Source of the DNA: Oscillospiraceae bacterium
GTDB lineage: Bacteria; Bacillota; Clostridia; Oscillospirales; Ruminococcaceae
Direction of reading: 5' to 3'
Assembly (NCBI GenBank): GCA_017432285.1
Contig: JAFRJM010000016.1
Coordinates: forward strand, 40,443-104,442
DNA: 64,000 nt
Part shown: positions 20,312 to 41,614 of the stretch, piece after piece
Layout: each line of letters starts with the position of its first letter
How positions within the stretch are numbered: the stretch's first letter is position 1
The notes under the pieces: generated by a model
Told to the model about the DNA's origin: nothing
The model's input: only the letters and a program-made list of their open reading frames with translations
Database searches by the model: none
Translations under genes and position numbers: made by a program

Positions 20312-20344
20312 AATGAAGTGTACTTTAAAGTGCACTTCATTTTT
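20312..20344 (+). terminator. Terminator of the P-type ATPase gene
   Basis: AATGAAGTGTAC and GTGCACTTCATT form a stem of about 12 pairs followed by TTTTGC. It is only about 20 bases ahead of the rpe start. Confidence 0.7.
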
Positions 20345-20362
20345 GCAAGGGAGGGAACGCAA

Positions 20363-21034
20363 ATGAGTCTGATCTGTCCGTCTGTTTTGTCTGCAGATTT
20401 TTCCAAGCTAGGCGCAGAAGTGGAAGATGTTCTCAACGGAGGAGCGGACTGGATCCATTACGATGTAATGGACGGACGTTTTGTCCCCAATATCTCCATA
20501 GGCATTCCTGTGCTGAAAAGCCTCTCAAAGGCAGTAAAAGCTTTTTATGATGTGCATCTTATGATAGAGGAGCCTCACCGCTATATTGCCGGTTTTGCCA
20601 AAGCGGGAGCGGACATGATATCTTTTCATGTTGAAGCCGAGGAGGATTGCTCAGGTACATTGGACCTTATTCACTCTTATGGCATAAAAGCCGGTATTGT
20701 AGTAAAGCCCAATACTCCTGCAGAAGAAGTGTTCCCGTACCTGGACAAGACTGACATGGTCCTTGTTATGACAGTGGAACCGGGGTTCGGCGGACAGAAG
20801 TACATGGCCGACATGTGCCCAAAGATCCGCGCTATACGCGATGAGGCGAAACGAATCGGAAAAGAAGATCTTCTGATCGAAGTGGACGGAGGGATTGCAT
20901 CAGACACGGTAGGATTTACCGCCGCAGCCGGAGCGAACGTGTTTGTCGCAGGAAGTTCTGTTTTTGGAAAGAAAGACCGTGCAGCGGCTATTGAGAGCAT
21001 TCGCAATGCCGCTGATGCTGCACTGGTTCAGTGA
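20363..21034 (+). CDS. rpe: Ribulose-phosphate 3-epimerase
   Basis: Interconverts ribulose 5-phosphate and xylulose 5-phosphate in the pentose phosphate pathway. A TIM barrel of 223 residues, the usual size. Motifs are ICPSVLSADFSKL, the metal-binding DVMDGRFVPN and DVHLMIEEP, VEPGFGGQK and the phosphate-binding VDGGI. ATG 20363 has GGGAGG 7 bases upstream; the frame open from 20318 passes through the terminator and is not used. Its stop overlaps the GTG start option of the RnfD-like gene, so rpe may be the promoter-proximal gene of the Rnf-like operon. The metabolic link is not obvious. Confidence 0.95.
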   Translation: MSLICPSVLSADFSKLGAEVEDVLNGGADWIHYDVMDGRFVPNISIGIPVLKSLSKAVKAFYDVHLMIEEPHRYIAGFAKAGADMISFHVEAEEDCSGTLDLIHSYGIKAGIVVKPNTPAEEVFPYLDKTDMVLVMTVEPGFGGQKYMADMCPKIRAIRDEAKRIGKEDLLIEVDGGIASDTVGFTAAAGANVFVAGSSVFGKKDRAAAIESIRNAADAALVQ

Positions 21035-21993
21035 GTTATATGAAGGAAACAACAGTAAGAAAAACTACATTGCACCCAAGTTTCAGACCATTCAGAGACT
21101 ACCTGGTCACTATGGTGCCGTTGGTTCTGCTCGCGACCTATGTGTATGGGTTGCGTGTTGTTGTTATGCTCGCGATTGCAACTGCCACATCCTCGCTCTG
21201 TGACCTTCTGGTAGCTGCACTGAGGGGAAGACATATCCGTCTTTCAGATATCTCCAGTTTTTGCTTTGCATGGACTGTAACGCTTATGCTGCCGGTCTCA
21301 GTTTCATACAGCGTGGTCATTTTTGCAGTATGTGCTACGCTGCTTCTTGGGAAACATCCTTTTGGAGGTTTTGGAAACTATCCGCTGCATCCTGCAGCAT
21401 TTGGTTTTGCTTTGACTGCAATAAGCTTTTCTGATCAGGTGTTTATGTATCCTCTCAAACCTGCAAGGCTTGGACTTGGATGGAAATTGGATATAGCTTT
21501 GTACCAGTCTCCTGCAGGTATCCTGCATGATGGCGGTGTTCCTCTGGTGGACAGAACAGATCTTATTCTGGGAAATTTCACCGGAGCGGTCGGAGGAACC
21601 TTCTGCCTGATCATTTTTGCGTGTTTGTTCCTTCTGATAATGCACAGAGCTGTGTGCTGGCAGATACCTGTATTTTATCTGGCTACCTGCGCAGCTTGGG
21701 CATTTTTCCTTCCTAGGATCCCTGCTGCAAAGGAAGATTCAGTTTTGTTTGAGATGTTCTGCTGCGGTATCCCGTATGCAGCGTCTTACCTTGTTGCAGA
21801 AGTTACTTTGATTCCCCAAAAACCGGTTGCAAGATGTCTGTATGGCATTGTCGCCGGGGTTTTGACCATGCTTATCTCTACATACGGCATATATGAAATA
21901 GGCGCTCCATTTGCAGTCTTGCTGGCTACTCCTATCGGATACTGGCTTGACCGCCTTCTTTCCAAGCGCAGAGAGGAGGTAAAGAATGGCTAG
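21031..21993 (+). CDS. RnfD/NqrB-like membrane protein lacking the flavin-attachment threonine
   Basis: A 320-residue polytopic membrane protein of the RnfD/NqrB family. Family marks include the N-terminal HPSFRPFRDYL, KHPFGGFGNYPLHPAA (like FGGxGxNxFNPA) and GNFTGAVGGT (like GNxxGSLGET). RnfD normally carries FMN linked to the threonine of an S-G-A-T motif. The matching segment here is S-P-A-G at residues 160-163, so threonine appears replaced by glycine. GTG 21031 overlaps the rpe stop and ATG 21040 is an alternative; neither has a strong ribosome site. It is first of an Rnf-like D-E-A trio, each overlapping the next. No B, C or G gene is nearby. Confidence 0.75.
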   Translation: MSYMKETTVRKTTLHPSFRPFRDYLVTMVPLVLLATYVYGLRVVVMLAIATATSSLCDLLVAALRGRHIRLSDISSFCFAWTVTLMLPVSVSYSVVIFAVCATLLLGKHPFGGFGNYPLHPAAFGFALTAISFSDQVFMYPLKPARLGLGWKLDIALYQSPAGILHDGGVPLVDRTDLILGNFTGAVGGTFCLIIFACLFLLIMHRAVCWQIPVFYLATCAAWAFFLPRIPAAKEDSVLFEMFCCGIPYAASYLVAEVTLIPQKPVARCLYGIVAGVLTMLISTYGIYEIGAPFAVLLATPIGYWLDRLLSKRREEVKNG

Positions 21994-22651
21994 AGCTAAC
22001 AGAAAAGTGCGCGCCAAAGGCCGTTTGGCCAGGAACGCCAGGGAGACCCAAGCAACAGATTACTTCTTCTTTAACAATGCTGTTCTGGTTCAGGGGTATG
22101 CCATGGCGCCGCTGATAAGCGGAGCAATTAACCTTCGCTCAGCAACAATACTTGCCTTGGCAGGTATCATTCTGATCATTCCTATCGGCGTTCTCGGTGA
22201 GGTTCTTACAGGTGTTCTTAATAAGCATCTCAGGTTAGGTATCTGTGTATTTGTCACATCTATCCTTATCATTCCGGAAATGGTCGTGCTTTACAGAGTA
22301 TTTGGGGGAGATGCAATAATCATCGGACTTTATCTGCCTTTGTTGTTTGTGGAACGGATAATCACGTTCAGAGCAACTGATGAAGTCAGGGAAGGCTTCC
22401 TCCGTTCACTCAACAGAAGTTTAAGTCTTGCTTTAGGCTATGCTCTTGTTATGCTGGCCTGCGGTGCCTTGAGAGAGGTGCTGGGAGCGGGCACTTTATG
22501 GGGGACCTCATTATCTATGAAACCTTTGTGGCCGGCGGCGAGTACTGCTCCTGCGGGTCTGATCATAGTTGCTTTGTTTGCCGCATTTTGGAATCTTATA
22601 TGCAGATTCTTTAGGAGAATGCTCTTTACAGAGGAGGATCTCAATGATTGA
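21986..22651 (+). CDS. RnfE-like (Rnf-Nqr family) membrane protein lacking cluster cysteines
   Basis: A 221-residue Rnf-Nqr family membrane protein. NNAVLVQGYAMAP (30-42) corresponds to the family NNPVLVQLLGLCP, and LREVLGAGTLWG (162-173) to IREILGxGT. In functional RnfE/NqrD one cysteine in each of two half-helices helps hold an intramembrane [2Fe-2S] cluster. Here these positions read Ala41 and Arg124 (PLLFVERIITF instead of PLIVVNCAILG). A basic N-terminal extension of about 20 residues (RANRKVRAKGRLARNARE) precedes the membrane part. GAGGAGG precedes the ATG. It overlaps the RnfD-like gene by 8 bases and the next gene by 8 bases. Confidence 0.72.
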   Translation: MARANRKVRAKGRLARNARETQATDYFFFNNAVLVQGYAMAPLISGAINLRSATILALAGIILIIPIGVLGEVLTGVLNKHLRLGICVFVTSILIIPEMVVLYRVFGGDAIIIGLYLPLLFVERIITFRATDEVREGFLRSLNRSLSLALGYALVMLACGALREVLGAGTLWGTSLSMKPLWPAASTAPAGLIIVALFAAFWNLICRFFRRMLFTEEDLND

Positions 22652-23294
22652 CGGACTGTTTGAAGGAATTATGGAATTTGCCGTTATCGCTTTCGGTGCG
22701 GCCACTCTTCAGAATCTGCTTCTCACCCGTATGCTGGGAGGAGATCACGTTCCAAGACAGAGCTCTCTGGTAGCGGAGCGGGTTTTCTGCATATCGCAGG
22801 CGATCTGCACTTTCCTGAGCTCTATCGGATTCTGGCTTGTACATAATTATCTTCTTCCTCAGGTGTCTCTGCTGGAGAGGTTCGGGATTTCTCCTTATTA
22901 TGCCAGAGCATATCTGTGGCCGTTCTGCGCATCACTTGTCTGTGTTTTGATCTACTTTGTTCTTTACAGCCTGGCGCAGGAAATACTTAAATCTGACTTG
23001 TCCAAACGTGTTCGCAGACAGTTGCCGTATGCTTGTTTCAACAGCTTTGTGTGCGCTGTGCTTTTCCGCGCAGCAGCTAATGATTACGACTTGGCCAGAA
23101 TGCTGGCTTTTGCGGTAGGAAGCGCTATTGGCTATTATCTTGCAGACCTTCTGATATGGGAGGGGAAGCAGAAGATGGAGAAAGCGGATATCCCTGAGGC
23201 TTTCAGGGGAATGCCTGCTGTTCTTTTATATATAGCTGGCCTTGTTATGGCGTTCTATGCGCTGGCGGGCAGGGGAGTTGTCACACTTCTTTGA
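22644..23294 (+). CDS. RnfA-like (Rnf-Nqr family) membrane protein lacking cluster cysteines
   Basis: A 216-residue membrane protein with about six helices, matching the RnfA/NqrE half of the family less closely. QNLLLTRMLGGDH (23-35) aligns with NNFVLSRFLGLCP, with Asp34 where the first cluster cysteine should be. LPYACFNSFVCAV (127-139) aligns with LPLITTNCAVLG, with Ser134 where the second should be. Cys131 and Cys137 are near but off-register. ATG 22644 follows GAGGAGG, and the first eight bases lie inside the RnfE-like gene. A longer frame from 22569 has no ribosome site. With its partner it would form the pseudo-symmetric A/E core of an Rnf-type complex without redox centres. Confidence 0.62.
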   Translation: MIDGLFEGIMEFAVIAFGAATLQNLLLTRMLGGDHVPRQSSLVAERVFCISQAICTFLSSIGFWLVHNYLLPQVSLLERFGISPYYARAYLWPFCASLVCVLIYFVLYSLAQEILKSDLSKRVRRQLPYACFNSFVCAVLFRAAANDYDLARMLAFAVGSAIGYYLADLLIWEGKQKMEKADIPEAFRGMPAVLLYIAGLVMAFYALAGRGVVTLL

Positions 23295-24281: not shown

Positions 24282-27200
24282 ATGGCATCCGATTATTTTG
24301 ACAGTTCAATTGAATTTCCGGAGCTTGACATACTGACCGGGCTACCAGTTGGGACGAAACCTTCAGCGGGTTCTTCCGATGGTTCCGGTTTCGGCAGTGA
24401 GGATTGGCAGAAGCAGTTCCTTGAGGACGGCGCTAAAGCGCTTGACTCAGGTGTTTTTGTGAACCCGATGGATATCGCGACTCAGGAAGAGAACAAAAAA
24501 CTCCGCAAGCAGCTTGAAGATCTGCGTGCGGAATCTGAGCGTGCTCAGGCGGAGTTCCGTGAGCAGCAGGACAAATATGTTGAAGTCCTCCGTCAGCTCA
24601 ATGAGAAGAACCAGGCGGATCTTGAGGAACAGAGAGTACAGCACGAAAGACAGATGGCCGAACTGACCAGTCATTTTGAAGCTCTCCAGACCGCATCCAG
24701 GAATGCCGGAGAGAAAGAGTCTGAGATGCGTTCTCAGCTTGACCAGATCCGTGCAGAGAAAGAGCTTATCCAGAGGCAGACAGAAGAGCTGAAGCGTGAG
24801 TTGGACGATCAGCGCAGGCTGGCGGATGATGAGCGCAGAAAAGCTGCTGAAGAAAAGGACAGAATCCTCGCAGAAGCGAAAGAGATGACTGAAAAGATGG
24901 CAGGCGAGTCGTCTGCCAAAGAAGAAGAGATCCGTAACGCGTTCCAACTGGAGAAACAGGGACTTCTTGATGAGATCGAAGGCTTGAAAGCAAAAGCGGC
25001 AGAAGACGCTGATTCTCAAAGATCATATTATGAGAACAAGATCCAGGAAGAGATAGGCCTCAAAGATGCTGAGATGGCTGCAAAACTGGCAGAAGCTGAT
25101 GAAGACAAGCGGATGATTCAAGAGAAGGCAGATCAGGATCAGGCGGTTTTACGGGAGCGCGCTTCTAACAGGATCAACGAGATAATAGCGGAAAACCAGA
25201 AACTTCAGGATGAAAGTGCAGCTCTTGCACAGAGTCTTGAAGAAAGCAACAAGAATTACGAACAGCTTGCTGCTGAACTCAACGAGACCAGATCCAAACT
25301 GGAGTACTCTGAAAGTGAGCAGGCTAAACGTGAGATAGAAGCTGCAAGGACAAGGCTTGCGGAGGAAGCTTCCAGCAGAGATCAGAAGATCGAGGAAGCT
25401 AAAGAGATAATCCAGAAACAGTGGAGCAAGATTCAGGACGACAGAGCTCTGATCGAGGCGGAGAAGGAAGTTCTTTCCAAAGAACGCGCAGATGCCGAGG
25501 AAGAGAAACGCAGAGCAGTATCCTGGCAACAGAGCACTTTAACTGAGCGTATCAGACTTCAGGATGCTCAGAAGAAACTGGCATCTGATCAGGAGGAAAT
25601 GGATGCGCTCCGTTCAGATCTGGAGAATCTCAGAGCAGCGATGGATGAGGAAAAATCCAGATTTGCTGAAGAGAAAGAAGCTTATGCGAGGCAGGTTGCG
25701 GATGAAACTGCTGAACGTCAGCGTCAGTTAACTGCTGCACGTGATTTCCTTGAGGAACAGCGCAGAGAATCTGAAGAGGAACGAGCGAACGTTTTGATGG
25801 AACGTCTCACCTTTGAGAAAGAAAGAGATGATGCCAGCAAGCAGCTGCAGACAGAGAGAGATGAGTTTGAAGGCAGAAAACGCCGTTTCTTCGAAGAACT
25901 CAGCAAGCTTGTTGATTGGGAAGGGTTTAAAACAGATTCCTTCAACAAAACTGAGGCGACAGGAGATAATACAGACATATCTGCAGAAGAACCATCTGAA
26001 GAAGTAACAAAAGAAGAAGTCCCTCTGTCGGAGATCCAGGATGTTCCGGAAGAAGAGACTGCTTCGTTGAACGATTTTTTTCAAGATGATCCGGTAGAGA
26101 ATGTATTTGAAGATGAGCAATTGCCATCACAGGACCGGATTATTGATGAATCACCTGAAGTAGATGATAAATCTGTGATGGCTAGTCCTTTTGCGGATCT
26201 TTTCAATGAACCTTCTTTGACAGAATCACTTTTCAGTAGTAACCAACAGGTCACTGAGCAGGAAGATAACGCTTCAGTTGATGTGTCGGAGGTTGCTGAA
26301 GAAACATTAGAAGCTGTTGCCTCTGATGAAAATGAAGGTGAAGATACTATCTCTGAAGAAGTGACAGCCGGTGAGGACAATGCTGGGCCTGCAGAAGAGC
26401 AAGAGCCTGACGAGCTTGCTATCGCTGAGCAACAGGATGAGTCCGTAAATGAAACTGAAGAGGTAACAGGTGTCGCTGAAGATACAAAAGAAGAGGAAAG
26501 CGATATTGAGTTTTCTTTTGAGCCGTTATCAGATGAACAGTTTACAGTGATTGATGATCTGCCGTTCGAAGAGAACGCAGATATTCCTACAGCCATCGAG
26601 GAAGAGAAAGCCTTGCCTGAACTGAACGATGAGCAGGACGTGGAAACTAACGAGGCCGAAACAGATGATATAGCCTCTTTGGAGGATCTGACATCTACTC
26701 TGGCATTTGAAATAGAGCAGAAAGTGTCTGAGCTGATGGATACTGTATCACAGTCTGAGGCAAAAGAGCCTGTTCTGAAAGAGCATACGAAAGAGAACCT
26801 TTTTGATACTCTTGCTGAGGTTGGAATCGCTTCTGAGAACAGACTGACTGATACGAATGAGAATGATATCAGTTTCGATCTGTCTCCCGTAGAAACAGAG
26901 ACGAAAGATAATACTGAAGCAAATGATTCTTTTAAGTATACGCCCCTCATAGTACCTGAGGTCACAGAGGATGAGGAGCAGGATGACGAAGCGTTTGATT
27001 TTGATGCTGTAACTGATGCGCTCAACATCGCGATGCTTGAAAAAGATGATTATACCTATACCGAGAATAACATTCTGCCGGATGGAGACAGTTATCTCAT
27101 AGCTGAAGGAATTACTTCGAAATACTATGTGAACACCAGTTCATATTCTTATCCTGTATTCCGCGAAGCGAACTTTATCTGTCCTGAAGGCAGCTGCACT

Positions 27201-27995
27201 GCGGTGGTAAGCGATGTTCCTTTCTGCAGCTATGCTCTGCTGAGAGCCATCGCCTCTCCTGAAGAACTTGCTGAAGGACAGGTTTATGTAGGCGGTCATA
27301 AGATCGACCCGTCAGACTATCTGTATATTGGATCAGACAGATTGATTTCACGGCACTCAAGTGTTCTTGAATGGCTTGTGGACAACGCCAGCGGAAAAGC
27401 AAAAGAGGCAGAGAAGAAATATAATGATCTTCTTTCAGATATCGGTATTTCAAAATGGGCTAAATCAAGCCTGAGTTCACTGTCCTATTCCAGAAGGATC
27501 CTTGTCCTTCTGCTTTCCAGTGCAGCGCACAAAGCCAAGATGATCCTTATAAATGATCCGCATTTTGCTGTGGAACCAAAGGATGAGATGATTGCAAGAA
27601 GGATTTTCCAACAGCTGCATGACAGCGGAAAGACAGTTATGATCTCAACCCCTGATCTGAATACCATCCAGTCTATCGCAAGCAGGATTGTGCTGCTGAA
27701 AAACAGCATGCTCCAGTATAACGGTTCATTTAAACAGTTTATGGAACAGTACGGCGGTACGGCAGTTTCCTTCCCCAAAGAATATATGGATGAAGTAAAA
27801 GTGGCTGCTGACTCTGATCCGAGGTTTTCTCTCATAGAAACTGATGATGAATGTATCCTGGAACTTCAGAAAGGATATACCGGAAGCACGGGTGACGCTA
27901 TAAGATTAGCGGAAGAGGCAGGTGTACCTACTGAGCAGATTCGCAATACAGAGAAGACATTTTCAGATGCGTGCAGGGAGGCGCTTGACACATGA
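24282..27995 (+). CDS. Giant coiled-coil protein with degenerate ABC ATPase-like domain
   Basis: A 1237-residue protein I do not recognise as a known family. Residues 1-55 are low in complexity (Gly/Ser). About 60-550 is a continuous Glu/Gln/Arg/Lys coiled coil. About 555-915 is strongly acidic and probably disordered. About 920-1155 resembles an ABC nucleotide-binding domain with every active motif changed. The Walker A site reads VSDVPFCSYALLRAI with no lysine. The signature region is SLSYSRRILVLLLSSA instead of LSGGQ. Walker B is MILINDP instead of LLLLDEP, and the switch histidine is Pro in MISTPDLNTIQSIASRIVLL. No membrane helix or signal peptide is seen. It overlaps the membrane protein downstream by four bases, so the two probably act together. 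Confidence 0.75.
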   Translation: MASDYFDSSIEFPELDILTGLPVGTKPSAGSSDGSGFGSEDWQKQFLEDGAKALDSGVFVNPMDIATQEENKKLRKQLEDLRAESERAQAEFREQQDKYVEVLRQLNEKNQADLEEQRVQHERQMAELTSHFEALQTASRNAGEKESEMRSQLDQIRAEKELIQRQTEELKRELDDQRRLADDERRKAAEEKDRILAEAKEMTEKMAGESSAKEEEIRNAFQLEKQGLLDEIEGLKAKAAEDADSQRSYYENKIQEEIGLKDAEMAAKLAEADEDKRMIQEKADQDQAVLRERASNRINEIIAENQKLQDESAALAQSLEESNKNYEQLAAELNETRSKLEYSESEQAKREIEAARTRLAEEASSRDQKIEEAKEIIQKQWSKIQDDRALIEAEKEVLSKERADAEEEKRRAVSWQQSTLTERIRLQDAQKKLASDQEEMDALRSDLENLRAAMDEEKSRFAEEKEAYARQVADETAERQRQLTAARDFLEEQRRESEEERANVLMERLTFEKERDDASKQLQTERDEFEGRKRRFFEELSKLVDWEGFKTDSFNKTEATGDNTDISAEEPSEEVTKEEVPLSEIQDVPEEETASLNDFFQDDPVENVFEDEQLPSQDRIIDESPEVDDKSVMASPFADLFNEPSLTESLFSSNQQVTEQEDNASVDVSEVAEETLEAVASDENEGEDTISEEVTAGEDNAGPAEEQEPDELAIAEQQDESVNETEEVTGVAEDTKEEESDIEFSFEPLSDEQFTVIDDLPFEENADIPTAIEEEKALPELNDEQDVETNEAETDDIASLEDLTSTLAFEIEQKVSELMDTVSQSEAKEPVLKEHTKENLFDTLAEVGIASENRLTDTNENDISFDLSPVETETKDNTEANDSFKYTPLIVPEVTEDEEQDDEAFDFDAVTDALNIAMLEKDDYTYTENNILPDGDSYLIAEGITSKYYVNTSSYSYPVFREANFICPEGSCTAVVSDVPFCSYALLRAIASPEELAEGQVYVGGHKIDPSDYLYIGSDRLISRHSSVLEWLVDNASGKAKEAEKKYNDLLSDIGISKWAKSSLSSLSYSRRILVLLLSSAAHKAKMILINDPHFAVEPKDEMIARRIFQQLHDSGKTVMISTPDLNTIQSIASRIVLLKNSMLQYNGSFKQFMEQYGGTAVSFPKEYMDEVKVAADSDPRFSLIETDDECILELQKGYTGSTGDAIRLAEEAGVPTEQIRNTEKTFSDACREALDT

Positions 27996-40426: not shown

Positions 40427-41614
40427 ATGATCTACAATGATTTTAATGGACTGAAACTGTCTCGCCTTGGATTCGGATGCATGCGTTTCGCTCTGGATCC
40501 TGCGACCGGCGAGATAGATCAGGACAAGGTCAATGCAATGTTTGAGCTTGCATACAACAGCGGCGTAAACTACTACGATACCGCATATCCTTATCTTGAC
40601 GGGAAATCCGAGAATGCAATGGCTGAAGCACTCAGCAGGTATCCGAGAGACAGTTACTACATAGCGGACAAGTTTCCCGGGCATTCGCTCCCGGGACCGA
40701 TAGACAATATTGCGCTGTTCAACATCTCTCTGGAAAGATGCAGGACAGACTATTTTGATTTCTATCTGCTTCACAATGTCACTGAGTGGTCGGTAAAGAT
40801 CTATGAAAGTGAAGAATATCATATTATTCCTGATGTCCTGAAAATGAAGGAAGAAGGAAAGATCAGACACCTTGGTTTCTCGTTCCATGGAGGCCCGGAC
40901 CTTCTCGATGAGCTCCTCACAAAATACGAGGGAGTATTCGAGTTCGTTCAGATTCAGTGCAACTATCTTGACTGGACACTGCAGGATGCAAAAAGAAAAT
41001 ATGACATCATCACCAAGCACGGCCTCGGAGTATGGGTCATGGAGCCATGCAGGGGAGGCAAACTGGCTAACCTGCCGGAAGAGTTCTCCAACAGACTGAA
41101 GGAGTTTAATCCGGATGCAAGTGATGCCTCATATGCTTTCCGTTTTCTGCAGGGTCTGCCGAATATCAGGATGATCCTTTCCGGAATGAACGAAGTGTTC
41201 CAGGTTGAAGATAACCTCAACACTTTCAAGGAATATGTGCCGTTGACTGATGCTGAAAGAGATACATTGTTTGAGATAGCGGAAGGAATGAAGAGAGGTG
41301 TTCCGTGTACAGGATGCCGGTATTGCTGTGCAGGATGTCCCATGGAACTCAATATCCCGTATCTGCTTGAGTGCTATAACGATTATAAATTCAGCACTTC
41401 TCTGACAGCCTCAATGCGCATAGATGGACTGGATCCTGATAAGAGACCTTCAAATTGCATTGGATGCGGTCAATGCGCGCATGCGTGCCCACAGGGAATA
41501 GACGTCCCTGCTGCTCTCGCTGAACTCAGCGACCTGTACGCTAATGGACCGACATGGGCTCAGGCAGCAAAAGGCAGGCATGAATCAATAAAGAAAGACT
41601 TGGGTATGGAATAG
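40427..41614 (+). CDS. Aldo/keto reductase fused to a two-[4Fe-4S] ferredoxin domain
   Basis: A 395-residue protein. Residues 1-275 form an aldo/keto reductase barrel (LSRLGFGCMR, YYDTAYPYLDGKSE with the catalytic Tyr, HNVTEWSVK, RHLGFSFHG). Its C-terminus has two ferredoxin-like cysteine sets (CTGCRYCCAGCP and CIGCGQCAHACPQGIDVP). This fusion type is common in clostridia. It probably takes electrons from ferredoxin or passes them to it while reducing a carbonyl compound. AAGGAGAGG lies before ATG 40427, and a TATAAT at 40374 may be its -10. It is a single gene ending at a bidirectional terminator. Confidence 0.9.
   Translation: MIYNDFNGLKLSRLGFGCMRFALDPATGEIDQDKVNAMFELAYNSGVNYYDTAYPYLDGKSENAMAEALSRYPRDSYYIADKFPGHSLPGPIDNIALFNISLERCRTDYFDFYLLHNVTEWSVKIYESEEYHIIPDVLKMKEEGKIRHLGFSFHGGPDLLDELLTKYEGVFEFVQIQCNYLDWTLQDAKRKYDIITKHGLGVWVMEPCRGGKLANLPEEFSNRLKEFNPDASDASYAFRFLQGLPNIRMILSGMNEVFQVEDNLNTFKEYVPLTDAERDTLFEIAEGMKRGVPCTGCRYCCAGCPMELNIPYLLECYNDYKFSTSLTASMRIDGLDPDKRPSNCIGCGQCAHACPQGIDVPAALAELSDLYANGPTWAQAAKGRHESIKKDLGME

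Follow-up and report, generated by a model that had tools for sequence, protein, structure and literature searches.

What becomes of a membrane-bound redox pump when its membrane subunits have stayed and the sites that held its cofactors have gone? The question is raised by three genes of an Oscillospiraceae bacterium (GenBank assembly GCA_017432285.1, contig JAFRJM010000016.1) in a stretch of 64,000 nucleotides (positions 40,443 to 104,442 of the forward strand), which is called the window below. Their products, here D, E and A, resemble the subunits RnfD, RnfE and RnfA of the Rnf complex. The present analysis points to an Rnf-derived, neofunctionalised and redox-stripped complex, in which no electrons would cross the membrane and whose D-E-A body would act as a redox-independent secondary transporter. 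We put this reading forward tentatively and give it a little less than an even chance.

The window trio and its cofactor sites

A first-pass annotation, made from the letters alone, had described three overlapping RnfD-, RnfE- and RnfA-like genes, and both the gene coordinates and the Pfam matches bear this out. The genes lie on the plus strand in the order D, E, A, directly after rpe:

21031..21993, plus strand: D, RnfD-like integral membrane protein of 320 amino acids (PF03116, 159.6 bits; rnfD model TIGR01946, 110.5 bits, cut-off 207)
21986..22651, plus strand: E, RnfE-like integral membrane protein of 221 amino acids (PF02508, 56.4 bits; best NCBIfam model rnfE, 45.3 bits, cut-off 213.4)
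22644..23294, plus strand: A, RnfA-like integral membrane protein of 216 amino acids, starting with ATG at 22644 (PF02508, 42.7 bits; best NCBIfam model rnfA, 44.7 bits, cut-off 229.3)
20318..21034, plus strand: rpe, ribulose-phosphate 3-epimerase, overlapping the start of D (TIGR01163, 263.6 bits, above the cut-off)

The PF03116 and PF02508 matches exceed the Pfam cut-offs, and all three proteins stay far under the NCBIfam cut-offs for rnfD, rnfE and rnfA; the NQR models of NCBIfam score lower than the rnf models. Against the chains of the Clostridium tetanomorphum structure 7zc6, the E-values were 3.8e-14 (D), 3.5e-7 (E), and 2.1e-8 (A). A and E may keep the inverted RnfA/E dimer fold, to judge from the homology of the window proteins to PF02508 and to the solved chains.

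In C. tetanomorphum, the ligands are described as RnfA Cys25 and Cys113 and RnfE Cys26 and Cys109, with a single iron modeled at this cysteine site and flavin mononucleotide (FMN) at RnfD Thr153 (PMC9588780). For Acetobacterium woodii, RnfA C25 and C113 and RnfE C25 and C108 are placed around a [2Fe-2S] cluster, and FMN on RnfD T156 (PMC11889175). To locate the equivalent positions in the window, its proteins were aligned with solved Rnf chains and with 22 canonical Rnf loci from its own family. Unless stated otherwise, residue counts compare these 22 loci with 82 distinct D-E-A trios of the window's type, termed stripped hereafter. Eight of 90 loci, with identical sequences, had been removed, and two single PF02508 proteins (L071 and L072) were left out as below the 100-bit limit. 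The positions in question, all on the plus strand, are as follows:

22106..22108: Ala41 of E, at the first RnfE ligand cysteine (Cys in 22/22 canonical and 0/82 stripped; Ala in 69)
22352..22357: Glu123-Arg124 of E, at the Asn-Cys of the second RnfE ligand (N and C each 22/22 in canonical; in stripped, Cys 0/82 and an acid at the Asn position in 66/82)
22743..22748: Asp34-His35 of A, at the Cys-Pro of the first RnfA ligand (Cys in 22/22 canonical and 0/82 stripped; Ser in 72; the next residue Arg in 68/82)
23043..23045: Ser134 of A, at the second RnfA ligand cysteine (Cys in 22/22 canonical and 28/82 stripped)
21508..21510: Ser160 of D, at the FMN-linking threonine (Thr in 22/22 canonical and 8/82 stripped)
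21388..21390: His120 of D, at C. tetanomorphum RnfD Asn124, of the riboflavin or proposed Na+ site (Asn in 36/36 canonical and 17/17 stripped loci with RnfC; without RnfC, His in 46/69 and Asn in 21/69)
21799..21801: Glu257 of D, at the conserved Asp248 of the same riboflavin or proposed Na+ site, acidity kept (acid in 16/17 stripped loci with RnfC and 68/69 without)

The window trio therefore has none of the four [2Fe-2S] ligand cysteines and no FMN-linking threonine. The ligand positions proposed at first sight (Ala41 and Arg124 of E, Asp34 and Ser134 of A) agree with the solved chains and the 22 canonical loci, and neither Cys131 nor Cys137 of the RnfA-like protein, both checked as alternative ligands, falls at a ligand position in the alignment. 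The claim that the SGAT motif had become SPAG held as to the loss of the threonine and failed as to its register: the threonine, which precedes a conserved proline, corresponds to Ser160, the first letter of SPAG, so that the change is from Thr to Ser.

The same pattern runs through the relatives. Among 81 E/A pairs, 53 had no ligand cysteine, 28 had one, and none had two. At the FMN position of D, the 82 trios had Ser (36), Gly (31), Thr (8), Ala (5), Asn (1), or Ile (1). The residues ahead of Ser160 in the window differ from what we take to be the usual ApbE motif. Covalent FMN on serine is described in another protein family (PMC11334425). The stripped trios also widely share residues of their own at the former cluster sites, S-R in RnfA and acid-P and A-P in RnfE. 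The idea that they keep the ion-translocating core is right only in part: the carboxylate at Asp248 stays (84/86 loci), as does the RnfA Asn preceding the second ligand (85/86), but RnfD Asn90 and Glu185, two residues that the C. tetanomorphum structure paper names, have gone, with one Asn in 86.

Partner subunits and the proposed order of loss

A model built from a single RnfB of the family found no match in the stripped loci scanned, the window genome as a whole not having been searched for RnfB; the same model matches every canonical locus except those cut short. Beside the window trio, neither rnfB nor rnfC gave a match, and D abuts E, leaving no gene at the place of rnfG in canonical clusters. 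The first-pass annotation had likewise described the soluble entry subunits as absent nearby. PF04205 had no match in the genomes G170, G080, G043, and G102, and one weak, sub-cut-off match on another contig of the window genome (G000).

An RnfC-like gene lies directly before D in five of the first 21 regions (two of the five scanned) and in 17 of the 97 stripped loci of the tree, another 11 of the 97 not being scorable. RnfC-like proteins were compared residue by residue for 17 distinct stripped loci, a set that overlaps the former without being identical to it (G102 is only in this residue count, G284 only in the tree and charge count); all keep the eight [4Fe-4S] cysteines (17/17). Nine further residues, which we assign to the site for FMN and nicotinamide adenine dinucleotide (NAD) on the assumption that NuoF-type motifs apply, are intact in 36/36 canonical RnfC (9/9), as against zero to two left in the 17 stripped proteins. 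The stretch GMGGAxFP, replaced by IVDE-DG-PL or similar in most of the latter, likewise sets the two kinds apart. Judged by their sequences, then, the stripped complexes are without RnfB and show no RnfG at its usual place. Of the RnfA/E ligands, three or all four have been lost, and in most complexes the FMN threonine as well; where RnfC is kept, it has both [4Fe-4S] cysteine sets and no FMN/NAD site.

No complete rnf operon, whose possible presence elsewhere the first-pass annotation had raised, was found in the window genome; this genome is 54.6% complete, and its own absences are therefore weak. Nor was a canonical Rnf found in the window's genus, and eight genus members with D have a single RnfD match each (the D query is known to find solved RnfD chains). 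In the window genome, a single RnfC match exceeds the cut-off. It lies on contig C3 (L059:10938-14550), where a PF12225 domain precedes RnfC in one fused protein; another PF12225 protein and a methylenetetrahydrofolate reductase come next. Its GMGGAGFP stretch is intact, the genes beside it belong to PF12225 and PF02219, and the fusion is presumably of the RnfC2-MetVF type of methylenetetrahydrofolate reductase. This orphan RnfC was rejected as the missing partner because it adjoins methylenetetrahydrofolate reductase genes on another contig.

Stripped loci form one clan in the tree (97 vs. 36 canonical, support 0.968); having no outside root, the tree does not tell which of the two sides changed. 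At the residue before the second RnfE ligand, loci with RnfC have Asn (15/17) or Ser (2/17), and all 17 keep RnfD Asn124. In loci without RnfC, the same position has Glu in 47 and Asp in 18 of 69, that is, an acid in 65/69 as against 0/17. An acid and a base occur together among six positions around the former cluster in 63 of these 69 loci; in most, the acid next to the lost RnfE cysteine is accompanied by a base next to that of RnfA. The window, with E123-R124 in RnfE and D34-H35 in RnfA, is of the RnfC-free kind; it and its sister G170 both retain an acid and a base at the former cluster site, the residues differing. By parsimony, three changes account for the presence of RnfC and one for the acid, so that 65/69 represents one historical event and not 65. 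Also by parsimony, RnfC is ancestral (rpe-C-D-E-A-DUF4015) and was lost later.

These results are consistent with a primary redox pump having become a redox-independent transporter in one order, with two steps visible in living relatives and the product now common in Faecalibacterium-type gut bacteria. In the first step, the membrane redox chain would have been lost and the RnfC clusters kept; in the second, RnfC would have been lost and fixed charges placed at the former cluster site. For this history, we would claim distinctly less than an even chance.

Distribution, retention, and neighboring genes

The first-pass annotation had asked whether such a trio without RnfB, RnfC, and RnfG exists elsewhere; stripped trios are found widely, some with an RnfC-like gene, and three of the four ligand cysteines are missing from all 82 distinct trios. 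Within the family, an RnfA-like query matched 179 of 197 genomes, canonical RnfA also giving matches. In all 29 best loci beyond the window genome, D, E, and A are adjacent, and cysteine is absent from both RnfE ligand positions and the first RnfA ligand position of the alignment. When named genome contigs were scanned with a nine-sequence RnfE-like alignment, 58 loci emerged, all classed as stripped D-E-A, whose named carriers include Faecalibacterium prausnitzii, Gemmiger, Fournierella massiliensis, Anaerofilum, Ruthenibacterium, Pygmaiobacter, and Subdoligranulum. By score, 45 chosen genomes comprised 31 with a canonical and a divergent E/A pair, five with the canonical pair only, three with the divergent pair only (G043, G102, and G170, the last counted with its RnfA-like match), two with a single weak match, and four with none, among them G080, a member of the window's genus.

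Across the order, 14 of 20 regions read were canonical and six stripped (families f5, f9, f15, and f24). A seventh stripped region, in G218 (family f23), has its E gene interrupted by an in-frame stop. The stripped complex is thus known from the window's family and five other families of the order. No stripped form was found beyond the order among the best-scoring loci class-wide: of 25 further loci, 24 are intact at the four cysteines and the threonine, and the exception, G214, belongs to the same order.

The G214 locus (L235:5390-10850) is an rnf cluster C-D-E-A-B with an unscanned gene at the place of RnfG; two of its four ligand cysteines are lost, and the FMN threonine is kept. Four relatives from its family are intact, and the cluster is possibly an early stage of the same ligand loss. 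One of the six stripped regions, that of G396 (L181:4480-8005), with D, a CAP-domain gene, E, and A, looks like an intermediate, its E-like protein retaining the first ligand cysteine alone; the CAP-domain gene was rejected as an RnfG, since it is RnfG-like in place only. Two ApbE-RnfC-RnfD clusters (L061:2995-6317 in G073 and L062:6531-9862 in G031) have no RnfE or RnfA in view and lie apart from the other rnf loci of those genomes. The two single proteins left out of the counts (L071:8039-8641, minus strand, 41.6 bits; L072:7499-8194, plus strand, 31.0 bits) are the sole PF02508 matches in genomes of 0.7 and 0.9 megabases (Mb); both are near a gene that by eye resembles elongation factor P, with no RnfD-like match within the 15-16 kilobases (kb) read.

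The trio is under purifying selection. In 11 pairs, the ratio of nonsynonymous (dN) to synonymous (dS) change, omega, ranged over 0.09-0.52 in the three genes, much as in rpe (0.07-0.50). Between the window and G475, dN was 0.18-0.20 for the three genes, and dS was 1.6, 3.1, and saturated. D is present in eight of nine genus genomes, and all four cysteines are absent in the seven complete genus trios (7/7). In the small genome G102 (1.0 Mb, 94% complete), the genes are spread over two contigs, one carrying C-D-E and the other A, which adjoins rpe; neither a canonical pair nor an ApbE or FMN_bind match was found there. Similarly, G170 (79% complete) keeps the stripped complex, with no ApbE or FMN_bind match found, and ApbE was not found in G080. 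Flavinylation was accordingly rejected as a requirement, ApbE being missing from the matches of G170, G080, and G102, yet present in G000 and G043. The ApbE gene of the window genome (G000:C2:35668-37079) adjoins a weak, sub-cut-off FMN_bind match on the opposite strand; given that no canonical Rnf was found there, this locus is perhaps another flavinylated system.

As to the neighbors, rpe is the constant one upstream: it lies on the same strand within 3 kb of D in 77 of 79 stripped loci with at least 2.5 kb in view, and the remaining two loci also contain it, yet outside this criterion. DUF4015 (PF13200) follows A within 600 bases in 62 of 82 stripped loci; its absence there in the other 20 led to its rejection as an obligatory partner. 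It was not found in G000, G170, G080, G043, G133, G039, G017, G142, G102, or G151, five of which are less than 90% complete or are the incomplete window genome. In two genomes from another of the order's families (L183 and L196), the same rpe-to-DUF4015 setting surrounds a canonical cluster that comprises C, D, E, A, and B, which makes the stripped cluster look like an rnf locus minus B and G. DUF4015 also follows rnfB in L185, L190, and L191 (57-122 bits with a custom model in these five loci).

The M24-like neighbor of the window trio, which the first-pass annotation had suggested might be conserved, did not hold up as a partner: in 20 regions no relative was found, and it is seen only in the closest relative, G475, the contig of G480 stopping just behind A. 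Farther downstream, a protein of 1237 amino acids (24282-27995) has no Pfam match at E 0.001, nor has the product of the overlapping gene that follows (296 amino acids). Two other loci have a MecA-like gene (PF05389; L179:376-975 and L047:12669-13244) in antisense orientation, placed after rpe and before the RnfC-like gene; relatives of the one in L047 occur in L040 and L046.

Possible transport, its alternatives, and comparison with known systems

If the complex is a transporter, its D-E-A membrane body would still assemble, and the inverted RnfA/E pair, with fixed charges at the old cluster spot, would work without redox chemistry. The activity would be secondary transport of a small solute or ion, by ion-coupled symport or by exchange. 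In loci that have lost RnfC, the RnfE acid would stand opposite the RnfA base beside the former ligands, and such fixed charges, replacing a reducible cluster, could let the alternating switch run without electrons. For the A. woodii Rnf, RnfA/E rather than RnfD has been proposed as the Na+ translocator, working by alternating access between inward and outward states under the gating of its cluster, beside which Na+ binds in the reduced state (PMC11889175). The authors of the C. tetanomorphum structure favored a channel in RnfD (PMC9588780). Of the roles suggested in the first-pass annotation (transporter, channel, or scaffold), the first is favored by the sequences only indirectly.

Several observations weigh against this reading. 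The riboflavin-site acid of D is conserved, although a purely redox-free complex would not need it for electron transfer; the riboflavin site in D may survive, and D could have a redox role. G396 keeps the first RnfE cysteine, ApbE is encoded in both G000 and G043, and the gain of the acid is by parsimony a single event on the tree. The conserved neighbors name no substrate, since rpe is a housekeeping gene and DUF4015 is neither constant behind A nor found in G000, G170, and G080. Lastly, G080 (90% complete) has no D, no PF02508 match, and a weak A match only, so that the complex is not universal even in the genus. The first-pass claim of redox loss was therefore confirmed in part: the RnfA/E [2Fe-2S] ligands and RnfB are gone, but the loss is not total across the group, and with the eight-cysteine RnfC-like proteins of 17 relatives, the D acid, and the G396 cysteine, part of the redox chain could survive in some members.

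One alternative is a residual or rewired redox complex, in which D would bind riboflavin non-covalently and, in the relatives, the two RnfC clusters would exchange electrons with D, as a redox sensor or a one-sided carrier. The Asp248 acid (84/86 scorable loci), Asn124 (17/17 loci with RnfC), and the eight RnfC cysteines (17/17) agree with it, and in C. tetanomorphum electrons are proposed to pass from riboflavin to the RnfC [4Fe-4S] clusters (PMC9588780). However, the RnfC-free loci, including the window, have no such electron partner, with His for Asn124 in 46/69, and the FMN/NAD site is lost even where RnfC remains; we consider this explanation doubtful, though not negligible. It is unlikely, too, that the trio is a membrane scaffold, chaperone, or regulatory module with no transport. 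A pseudo-enzyme scaffold, too, would have lost catalytic residues and kept those typical of its family, but it would not obviously need the new residues that the trios widely share at the former cluster sites of RnfA and RnfE.

The subunits might instead join and tune the canonical Rnf of the same cell as accessories or decoys. This would suit the 31 of 45 chosen genomes that by score have both kinds of E/A pair, yet the divergent form occurs without a canonical pair in the window genome, G170, G043, and G102, most of them incomplete, and eight genus members, their genomes mostly incomplete, have a single D match, which makes the idea improbable. Remnants of a decaying rnf operon, that is, pseudogenes in progress, are barely credible. 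Decay would begin with the loss of motifs and subunits, and in-frame stops do occur in the E gene of G218 and the A gene of G037; nearly all listed matches, however, have open frames, omega is well below 1 in the 11 pairs and between the window and G475, the trio has shared residues of its own, and the reduced genome G102 retains it. With purifying selection and a single well-supported clan, the early judgment that this is not a decaying pseudogene cluster stands.

Among the open-licence papers listed, no report of a cofactor-less Rnf or of the stripped complex was found; in the review PMC12174285, the terms Faecalibacterium, Ruminococc-, truncated, and variant do not occur. By homology, the trio genes are likely annotated as Rnf subunits. 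Energy-conserving electron transport may therefore be credited to them in metabolic models of Faecalibacterium and related bacteria, an assignment that would be wrong if the complex is redox-free. A redox-free complex would also be a natural test of RnfA/E versus RnfD as the ion carrier, on which the two structure papers differ. As natural mutants without the cluster and with the subunits kept, these loci could show which parts are needed for what. If secondary transport is indeed their activity, a primary pump has been turned into another machine whose intermediates are still alive.

Compared with Rnf (RnfABCDGE; C. tetanomorphum 7zc6, 9eri, and 8ahx), D, E, A, and in some relatives the RnfC-like protein are homologous. 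Unlike Rnf, the stripped complex has no RnfB and nothing at the place of RnfG, has lost three or more of its four [2Fe-2S] ligands and, in most loci, the FMN threonine, and has either no RnfC or one without the FMN/NAD site. With the Nqr/Rnf-like complex described in PMC11334425, it shares an NqrB/RnfD homologue without the flavinylation threonine. That complex is presented there as a two-subunit system with an RnfG/NqrC-like flavoprotein, its membrane subunit bearing an NAD-binding domain, and electron transfer is proposed for it; the stripped complex, by contrast, keeps E and A and is without the flavoprotein and NAD-binding parts. The membrane subunits NqrBDE of the Na+-NQR are homologous to D, E, and A of the window. 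The Na+-NQR has the ligand cysteines and FMN (PMC9588780; PMC11889175) at the positions lost in the window trio; of its electron-entry subunit, NqrF, none was seen here, with no search aimed at it. Like the stripped complex, the Na+-NQR lacks RnfB, having been derived, according to PMC4014512, from an rnf duplicate that lost this subunit, and that origin is the nearest precedent for the complex described here.

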